A stretch of DNA of 64,000 nucleotides, taken from the NCBI GenBank assembly GCA_003963145.1, contig RXJJ01000003.1, positions 362,146-426,145 on the forward strand, read 5' to 3'. Shown piece after piece: positions 14,888 to 16,850 of the stretch (positions within the stretch are counted from its first letter, which is position 1; each line of letters begins with the position of its first letter). Made by a program: the position numbers and the translations under genes. This stretch comes from Bradyrhizobiaceae bacterium (GTDB lineage Bacteria; Pseudomonadota; Alphaproteobacteria; Rhizobiales; Xanthobacteraceae). The notes below the pieces were generated by a model, which saw only the letters and a program-made list of their open reading frames with translations, had not been told where the DNA came from and searched no databases.

Positions 14888-14911
14888 ATTGAAATCATTG
14901 GCAAGCACATT

Positions 14912-14928
14912 TGATTGCATCGCAATCA
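14912..14928. promoter_or_regulatory. palindrome TGATTGC-ATC-GCAATCA upstream of coaBC, candidate operator
   Basis: A perfect 7-bp inverted repeat with a 3-bp centre ends 33 bp before the coaBC start. A TTGATT (14911-14916) and TAGGCT (14934-14939) pair with 17-bp spacing gives a weak promoter overlapping it. Short inverted repeats of this size are typical ribbon-helix-helix operators, and the downstream protein carries such a domain at its N-terminus. Autoregulation is inference. Confidence 0.45.
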
Positions 14929-14961
14929 TTTGCTAGGCTGGACCCGTTGGATGAGGGCGCC

Positions 14962-16395
14962 ATGGCCAGCCTCACGGTTCGCAAGCTGGATGACGAGATC
15001 AAGGCTGCGCTCAAGCTGCGCGCGGCCAGAAGCGGCCGCTCGGTCGAGGACGAGGTCCGCGTGATCCTGCGCGAAGCGGCGGAGACGCCGGCCCAGAGGC
15101 CGGCGGCACCAGAGCCTATGGAGTCAGTTCCACGCAACCAGCGGCTCCGCCCCGCCGAGAATGGCCGCCCGCGCGTCACGCTGATCATCGGCGGCGGCAT
15201 CGCGGCCTACAAGGCGCTCGATCTGATCCGGCGGCTGAAGGATCGCGGCTGCCATGTCGGCTGCGTGATGACGCGCGCCGCGCAGCAATTCGTTACGCCG
15301 CTGACGGCGAGCGCGCTGGCGGACGAACCCTGTTACACAGACCTGTTCGACTCGCGCAGCGAATTCGACGCCGGCCACATTCGCCTCGCGCGCGACAGCG
15401 ACATGATCGTGGTCGCGCCGGCCACCGCCGACCTGATGGCGAAGATGGCACAGGGCCACGCCGACGATCTTGCAACCGCGATCCTGCTCGCGACCAACCG
15501 CCCGGTGCTGATCGCGCCTGCGATGAACCCGATGATGTGGACCAACAGCGCGACGCGGCGCAACGTCGCGCAGCTCGAACGCGACGGCATCGCTTTTATC
15601 GGTCCGAATTCCGGTGAGATGGCCGAAGCCGGCGAAGCCGGTGTCGGACGCATGGCCGAACCGGCGGAAATCGCCGCCCGTGCCGATGCCATTCTTCGCC
15701 CGCCGCAGGCGCGTATCCTTTCGGGGATTCGCGTGCTGGTCACGGCAGGGCCGACCCACGAGCCGATCGACCCGGTGCGCTATATCGCCAACCGCTCCTC
15801 GGGCAAGCAGGGCTTCGCCATTGCGGCCGCCGCTGCCAGGGCGGGAGCTGATGTCACGCTGATCTCGGGTCCCGTCGATCTCGACGATCCTGCAAATGTC
15901 CACATCATTCACGTCGAATCGGCGCGCGATATGCTGGATAACGTCCAGAAGGCGCTGCCGGTCGACGTCGCAGTGTTCGCCGCCGCCGTGGCCGACTGGC
16001 GCGTCGCCAATGCCGGCGCGCAGAAAATCAAGAAAACCCAAGGCAGCCTGCCGCAACTGGAGCTGACCGAAAATCCCGACATTCTCGCCACTGTTTCAAA
16101 GCTCACAGTCAACCGGCCGAAGCTCGTGATCGGCTTTGCAGCAGAAACCGAAAATCTCATCGCCAATGCAAGATCGAAACTCGCGCGCAAGGGCTGCGAC
16201 TGGATCGTCGCCAACGACGTCTCGCCCGGCAGCGGCGTGATGGGCGGCGATCGCAACACCGTGCATCTGATCACGAGGGATGACCCACCGGATCACGCGC
16301 CGGATGTCTGGCCGGTAATGACCAAGGAGGATGTCGCCGCCACCCTGGTCGCGCGCATCGCGGGCGCCGTCAAAAAGGACGTATCAAGATCATGA
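14962..16395 (+). CDS. coaBC: ribbon-helix-helix domain fused to CoaBC (phosphopantothenoylcysteine decarboxylase / phosphopantothenate-cysteine ligase)
   Basis: CoaBC performs two steps of coenzyme A synthesis: CTP-dependent joining of cysteine to phosphopantothenate, then flavin-dependent decarboxylation. Residues 1-43 of this 477-residue protein form a ribbon-helix-helix domain like the antitoxin FitA (beta strand SLTVRKLD, then helices around [11 protein letters not shown] and [13 protein letters not shown]), followed by a Pro/Glu-rich linker to about 68. CoaC follows ([10 protein letters not shown], His139 in [15 protein letters not shown]), then CoaB ([34 protein letters not shown]). 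The decarboxylase clamp at 217-231 ([15 protein letters not shown]) has no cysteine. The ATG at 14962 follows GATGAGGG; an internal ATG at 15118 would omit the RHH domain. It overlaps dut by 4 bp. Confidence 0.93.
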
Positions 16396-16850
16396 GCGAA
16401 ACGCTTCGTCTCGAAATCCAGCAGCTTGCGCACGGCGAAGGGCTCACTTTGCCGGCCTATCAGAGCGAATTGGCCGCAGGCCTCGATCTGCTTGCTGCGA
16501 TCCCCGAAGACAAGCCGCTGATTCTGGAACCGCAATCCTATGCGCTCGTGCCGACGGGCCTCGCCATCGCCCTGCCGCCGGGGTTCGAGGCGCAAGTGCG
16601 CCCGCGCTCCGGTCTCGCCGCCAAACACGGCATTACGGTACTGAACGCGCCGGGCACGGTCGACGCCGATTATCGAGGCGAGATTTTCGTCCCGCTCATC
16701 AACCACGGGGCAAGCGCCTTCACCATCCGGCGTGGCGAACGCATCGCGCAGATGGTGATCGCCCGCGTCGCCCATGCGGAACTTGTCACCGTGGCGACAC
16801 TGGCTCCGACCGCGCGCGGCAGCGGCGGCTTCGGCTCGACCGGACGGTAA
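16392..16850 (+). CDS. dut: deoxyuridine 5'-triphosphate nucleotidohydrolase
   Basis: The trimeric dUTPase hydrolyses dUTP to dUMP, keeping uracil out of DNA and feeding dTMP synthesis. The 152-residue product has all five family motifs in order: [41 protein letters not shown] and the C-terminal [11 protein letters not shown]. The start codon overlaps the coaBC stop (ATGA), the widely conserved coaBC-dut pairing. Confidence 0.97.

Follow-up and report, generated by a model that had tools for sequence, protein, structure and literature searches.

In a bacterium of the Bradyrhizobiaceae, a ribbon-helix-helix (RHH) domain of the FitA antitoxin type is fused in frame to the full metabolic enzyme CoaBC, and this union is not an accident of a single genome. 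We judge it highly likely that, through the domesticated antitoxin head, CoaBC represses its own gene in the manner of PutA, and that both the head and its operator were captured from a FitAB-type operon. In many Afipia and Bradyrhizobium relatives, RHH-bearing CoaBC very probably governs its own production, as judged from the loci compared below. Control of the coenzyme A pathway is known chiefly as feedback inhibition acting on the enzymes themselves. If our reading is true, it would add transcriptional self-control of coenzyme A synthesis, as well as a further kind of RHH trigger enzyme besides PutA.

An earlier, sequence-only reading of this locus had already proposed that the enzyme could be its own repressor. 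That reading is supported overall, and its proposal of self-repression is strengthened by a FitA-type candidate operator in the promoter that co-occurs with the domain. Both this operator and the likely origin of the head were absent from the earlier account.

Architecture of the fusion gene

The window, which is the whole stretch of 64,000 nucleotides (64 kb) that was analyzed, holds the fusion gene and its downstream neighbor at the following positions.

14962..16395, + strand: RHH-CoaBC fusion gene, 477 aa, opening at ATG 14962 and comprising a FitA-type RHH domain, a variable linker, and a complete CoaBC
14965..15081, + strand: FitA-type RHH domain, residues 2–40 (PF22513)
15082..15168, + strand: variable Pro/Ala/Glu-rich linker between RHH and CoaC
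15172..15684, + strand: CoaC, phosphopantothenoylcysteine decarboxylase domain (Flavoprotein, PF02441), residues 71–241
15718..16272, + strand: CoaB, phosphopantothenate-cysteine ligase domain (DFP, PF04127), residues 253–437
16392..16850, + strand: dut, dUTP diphosphatase (NF001862), whose start overlaps the coaBC stop

The N-terminal fold had been recognized as FitA-like from the letters alone, and profile searches agree: the Pfam model PF22513 (FitA-like_RHH) matches residues 2–40 with 62.2 bits (cut-off 27, E 4.3e-17). The nearest solved structures by sequence are those of FitA (2h1o and 2bsq, E 0.002 with a single-sequence query), and FitA chains are top-ranked when a 16-row profile of fused domains is used (2h1o, E 1.4e-7). 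The NCBIfam model TIGR00521 (CoaBC) matches residues 71–466 with 392.9 bits (cut-off 219.7), which indicates that CoaC and CoaB are both complete. Together with the Pfam domains, this match confirms the earlier claim of an in-frame join to a whole CoaBC through a Pro/Glu-rich linker. No trace of an antitoxin's toxin-binding tail was found in the linkers: a profile of seven such tails matched none of 95 (best E 0.8).

There is one coaBC match in the whole genome, and it is flanked by ubiB and dut. Because the dut start overlaps the coaBC stop, the two genes are probably co-transcribed. An internal start at ATG 15118 was judged unlikely: this codon sits in the nonconserved linker, the part upstream of it and the start codon are conserved, and the candidate operator lies 5′ of ATG 14962.

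Within CoaC, the flap before GRM (window positions 15601–15654) is the place of catalytic Cys158 in the E. coli enzyme. A cysteine precedes GRM there in 0 of 165 CoaBC cores, whether fused or unfused, and the alignment to M. smegmatis CoaBC (6TGV) likewise has none at that position.

Conservation of the fusion among relatives

The family sample comprised 149 genomes, 147 of which gave a CoaBC match, and 145 loci were read after the partial matches in G004 and G138 were left out. At one locus, L098, the contig ends 61 bases short of the CoaC homology; this locus is counted within the 55 unfused family loci in the box counts and within the 70 unfused loci used to examine origins. The RHH domain lies in frame just before CoaC in 90 of the 144 judgeable loci (90 fused, 55 others including L098), and by a count of tree labels the fusion is spread over 24 genera of the family. 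All 90 have a start codon at the same place, which is ATG in 85, GTG in four, and TTG in one. Residues R7, R20, A22, R26, S27, E29, E31, R33, and L36 are found in every one of these relatives and T5 in 89 of them. The linker is free in both sequence and length, with about 21–51 residues.

Within the window's genus, a PF22513 match above the cut-off was found in all 23 genomes searched, nine of which were also matched as CoaBC in the family sample. In 22 of the 23, the match falls within an open frame of 468–504 aa, the size of the fusion. A second match at E 0.001 is absent from 22 of these genomes, and the one present in G682 is under the cut-off. Thus, the suggestion that the domain might be conserved in this bacterial family proved correct, both at the 90 family loci and throughout the genus genomes. 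In one genome of the genus (G684, locus L224), a frame break next to a run of C in the linker parts RHH from CoaBC, and this may be a sequencing error or a real split.

The fusion is also matched from residue 1 by an Afipia sp. MAG (L172) and a Bradyrhizobium MAG (L173). Outside the family, fusions occur at least at L151 (f15) and, within f22, in genus g98 (L152, L154, and L155, as well as L153 with a different RHH domain), and each of these has tandem boxes just upstream. Among the matches listed for the class sample, which was searched with the 16-row profile, none outside the genome itself starts in the RHH domain (lowest query start 50). For plasmid records, the best 15 of 49 rows start at query residue 51 or later.

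The valine of FitA that contacts a thymine methyl is reported to be replaced in most other RHH proteins by a neutral hydrophilic residue (PMC3325190). On the basis of the profile alignment, residue 5 of the fusion is probably at the position of that valine.

This pattern of conservation bears on the idea that the domain is a passenger, a neutral remnant of an antitoxin fusion that has no present role. Fusions may arise readily, given that the fused label switches several times on the CoaBC tree and that toxin–antitoxin genes lie upstream in some relatives. However, mean pairwise identity among the fused family loci is 0.694 for the RHH domain, near the 0.727 of the CoaBC core, while the linker is unconserved. 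The domain has also been kept in 23 of 23 genus genomes searched. We therefore consider it very improbable that the head is carried without a function.

A candidate operator upstream of coaBC

Three features were noted upstream of the fusion gene.

14912..14928, no strand: candidate operator pair TGATTGCA-T-CGCAATCA, two octamer boxes with a 9-bp step and one mismatch
14890..14897, no strand: third box TGAAATCA, lying 22 bp before the pair's first box, as read from the sequence
14911..14939, + strand: possible sigma-70-like promoter TTGATT-17-TAGGCT, a weak prediction, with the putative operator in and around its spacer

The palindrome TGMWWKCA sums up repeated octamers found upstream of fused genes, for example TGATTGCA, TGATATCA, TGCTAGCA, and TGCAATCA. 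It was derived from the fused set itself, with the unfused set as its control. One or more exact boxes lie no further than 200 bp from the start in 86 of 90 fused family loci versus one of 55 unfused loci, and a box pair with the 9-bp step and at most one mismatch is present over that distance in 80 of 90 versus none of 55. When the fused set is shuffled with a first-order Markov model, a box arises on average in 8.1 loci and a pair in 0.12. Within 350 bp, the exact pair occurs in 59 of 90 fused loci and the pair with at most one mismatch in 81 of 90, versus none of the 55 unfused loci in either case. A relaxed TGNNNNCA pair is found over the same distance in 89 of 90 fused loci versus five of 55 unfused loci, and two of these five have a toxin–antitoxin pair. 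In the 64-kb window, the pair at 14912–14928 is the sole match with at most one mismatch (0.15 expected).

An offset of 9 bp leads among exact boxes (58 of 90 fused loci), followed by 18, 22, and 23 bp, and the 22-bp offset recurs in 21 of 90 fused loci. The pair with at most one mismatch is absent from nine of 95 fused loci, six of which belong to a group that has N for S at residue 3 and relaxed-looking boxes. Several box sets in this Asn-3 group (L032, L038, L040, L041, L044, L045, L050, and L055) drift to TGNNNNCA, and it is possible that the drift represents a change in operator specificity accompanying the strand residue. Judged by eye, L034, L054, and L055 carry an apparent REP-like insert between operator and start, with the boxes pushed further up. 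No more than one exact box remains at L105, an unfused locus within a fused clade.

L003 and L005 have a good promoter (TTGATT...TATAAA) whose 17-bp spacer is taken up by the pair, with TATAAA placed like the −10 element of the window. The arrangement TTGATN-16/17-TANNN(T/A) is found in 33 of 90 fused versus two of 55 unfused loci. A scan for strict consensus promoters and terminators returned none in the region upstream of coaBC in the window, where the −10 hexamer is poor.

A different role for the head would be that of a dimerization or assembly module of the CoaBC oligomer only, with DNA binding lost and the boxes persisting as relics of an antitoxin promoter. RHH domains dimerize. Combined with the dodecamer reported for mycobacterial CoaBC (PMC7794376), this makes extra contacts within the oligomer plausible. 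However, the palindrome and the 9-bp phase are kept in fused loci even as the letters of the boxes vary, the pair is retained in none of the 55 unfused loci, and T5 and R7, both in the strand, hardly vary. We find an exclusively structural role unlikely on these grounds. The sequence-only reading had offered a captured antitoxin serving as a dimerization module as its second possibility. The capture is supported by antitoxin–toxin pairs at the same place in relatives, but dimerization alone would leave the operator unexplained.

Possible readers and targets of the boxes in other contexts

Across the 149 family genomes, the exact pair is seldom seen: 83 have it at any position, and five have the reversed pattern. 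From the matches listed, 20 sites not associated with coaBC were taken, leaving out eight copies of one G086 sequence and one G093 site. At seven of the 20, a stand-alone RHH antitoxin gene starts 9–21 bp after the boxes, and a PIN gene comes next in six of these seven, as called with profiles built from the loci at hand. Two of the stand-alone antitoxins were scanned with Pfam, and L211 is above and L220 below the PF22513 cut-off. The other 13 sites are not located before an RHH gene; some lie inside ORFs and may be due to chance. The sequence omitted from G086, TGAAATCAWTGATTTCA, occurs eight times in that genome and resembles a dispersed repeat. As far as their sequence associations tell, the boxes belong to FitA-type antitoxins.

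The situation in the window's own genome is simpler. Its one PF22513 match is that on CoaBC, and a search of the whole genome for PIN toxins (PF01850) gave no match, which extends the earlier remark that no VapC/FitB-type PIN gene is nearby. Sites with at most one mismatch exist at four places, and the three besides coaBC are in or near unrelated ORFs. Because there is one PF22513 match, no PIN match, and one convincing site, the sole FitA-type reader found and the sole convincing operator are the two ends of one gene.

These data also speak to the possibility that the fusion chiefly acts in trans, controlling other genes or foreign FitAB loci. The same boxes are present at stand-alone FitAB-type operons elsewhere in the family, and one site in the window's genome (L148, one mismatch) lies 40 bp before a transporter-like ORF and may be a second target. 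Against such a role, the coaBC promoter holds the only convincing site in this genome, and no PIN toxin was found there. We give very little credence, therefore, to a regulator devoted mainly to distant targets.

A model for autoregulation and its known counterparts

In the autorepression model, the CoaBC oligomer would supply RHH dimers that occupy the octamer boxes arrayed in tandem across the promoter. This binding would repress coaBC and probably also the overlapping dut, and such negative autoregulation would hold the output of the enzyme, as PutA does for the put genes. We infer from sequence comparisons that the fusion binds DNA, that it represses, and in which direction evolution proceeded; substrate or CoA level might modulate the repression.

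PutA of E. coli, Salmonella, and Pseudomonas putida is described as a bifunctional proline catabolic enzyme with an N-terminal RHH domain that represses its own gene (PMC5879082). RHH-CoaBC shares this layout, an RHH at the N-terminus of a bifunctional metabolic enzyme, and, as predicted here, has a candidate operator in its own promoter. In contrast to PutA, the enzyme works in biosynthesis, as a flavin decarboxylase and ligase; its RHH belongs to the FitA antitoxin family; and a likely toxin–antitoxin origin is visible in relatives.

The operator of FitAB has half sites TGCTATCA and TGATAGCA with 12 bp between them. Unlike this arrangement, the coaBC boxes are in tandem with a 9-bp step. RHH-CoaBC otherwise resembles FitA and VapB-type antitoxins, such as that of FitAB in Neisseria gonorrhoeae, in its PF22513 membership and its putative octamer half sites, and its boxes are common to the stand-alone FitA-type antitoxins of the family. 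The FitAB half site is reported to be 8 nt long, with specific contacts at six positions (PMC6118392). Unlike a FitA-type antitoxin, the fused head lacks a toxin-binding tail and is part of an enzyme, and no PIN partner for it was found in the genome.

In its catalytic portion, RHH-CoaBC resembles other CoaBC (Dfp) proteins, such as that of M. smegmatis (6TGV), in having complete CoaC and CoaB. The solved full-length M. smegmatis protein has no RHH domain, because its residue 4 is the first to align, to query residue 68. Mycobacterial CoaBC is described as a dodecamer that is itself inhibited by CoA thioesters, and the accessible text of that report describes no transcriptional self-control (PMC7794376). 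By analogy with this inhibited dodecamer, a signal reflecting the state of the enzyme would be possible for RHH-CoaBC. In the open-licence literature, no description of CoaBC (phosphopantothenoylcysteine) with ribbon-helix-helix or of coaBC with an antitoxin was found among the matches listed.

An extension of the autorepression model, which we hold only tentatively, is that toxin–antitoxin pairs upstream of coaBC have repeatedly been domesticated into a metabolite-sensing trigger enzyme. As many as six RHH dimers might bridge paired boxes and repress coaBC-dut according to occupancy by substrate or by CoA and acyl-CoA. If true, this would amount to a transcriptional CoA thermostat made from an antitoxin and gained several times. 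In B. subtilis, coaBC is reported to be essential (PMC11487621), which would fit tuning rather than on-off switching.

Likely origin of the antitoxin head

The gap between ubiB and coaBC was examined in 70 unfused loci, 55 from the family and 15 from other families of the order, and ubiB was within reach in 48. In eight of the 70 (L094, L122, L143, L144, L145, L156, L158, and L166), this gap is occupied by an RHH antitoxin gene and, after it, a PIN gene, with the PIN stop located 8–46 bp before the CoaC homology. The PIN assignment was confirmed by Pfam in the six loci scanned, and L143 and L144 resemble L145. In two further loci (L093 and L110), the antitoxin is intact and the toxin is reduced to its ends. 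For these ten loci with an upstream antitoxin, tandem boxes with at most two mismatches precede the antitoxin in six and an extra RHH gene in L156, and the box pair was not found at L093, L143, and L144. The RHH domain of the L153 fusion is 71% identical over 38 residues to the stand-alone RHH in the ubiB-coaBC gap of L156, which belongs to the same supported clade.

On a CoaBC tree of 165 rows made by a quick method, the fused label takes eight changes, at least five of which are on supported branches. This indicates that fusion or loss has recurred, with gain and loss being indistinguishable. Presence of the fusion and of the operator agree in five of five independent pairs on supported branches (sign test, median p 0.0625, where five pairs cannot reach 0.05). 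A small number of events may lie behind most of the 90 fused family loci, and locus counts therefore overstate independence.

These relatives would show a visible route of insertion, toxin loss, and fusion, and we infer that the steps ran in this direction. In the proposed course of events, a FitAB-type toxin–antitoxin operon inserted between ubiB and coaBC. The toxin and the toxin-binding tail of the antitoxin would then have been lost, leaving the N-terminal 40 residues as the remaining DNA-binding head. The operator of that operon would have been retained, such that it now lies within the coaBC promoter.

A review notes that antitoxins can leave their pair and take on regulatory roles, and that they may be the source of RHH regulators (PMC8987985). 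RHH-CoaBC is unlike such exapted antitoxins in that the captured RHH and the promoter with its putative sites belong to the same enzyme, and in that decaying pairs are present at the same locus in relatives. Because the intact pair, decaying pairs, and fusions share one place, the domestication of an antitoxin can here be traced gene by gene.

Genes of other kinds were also seen in this gap. GNAT acetyltransferase genes lie there in L107 (confirmed by Pfam) and, by resemblance, in L109, L117, and L126. The gap of L097 holds a HicA gene with a HicB-like partner, and that of L111 holds a DUF4258 gene with a small partner that has no Pfam match. With HicA/HicB-like and DUF4258 genes present as well, the ubiB-coaBC gap looks like a settling place for such genes.
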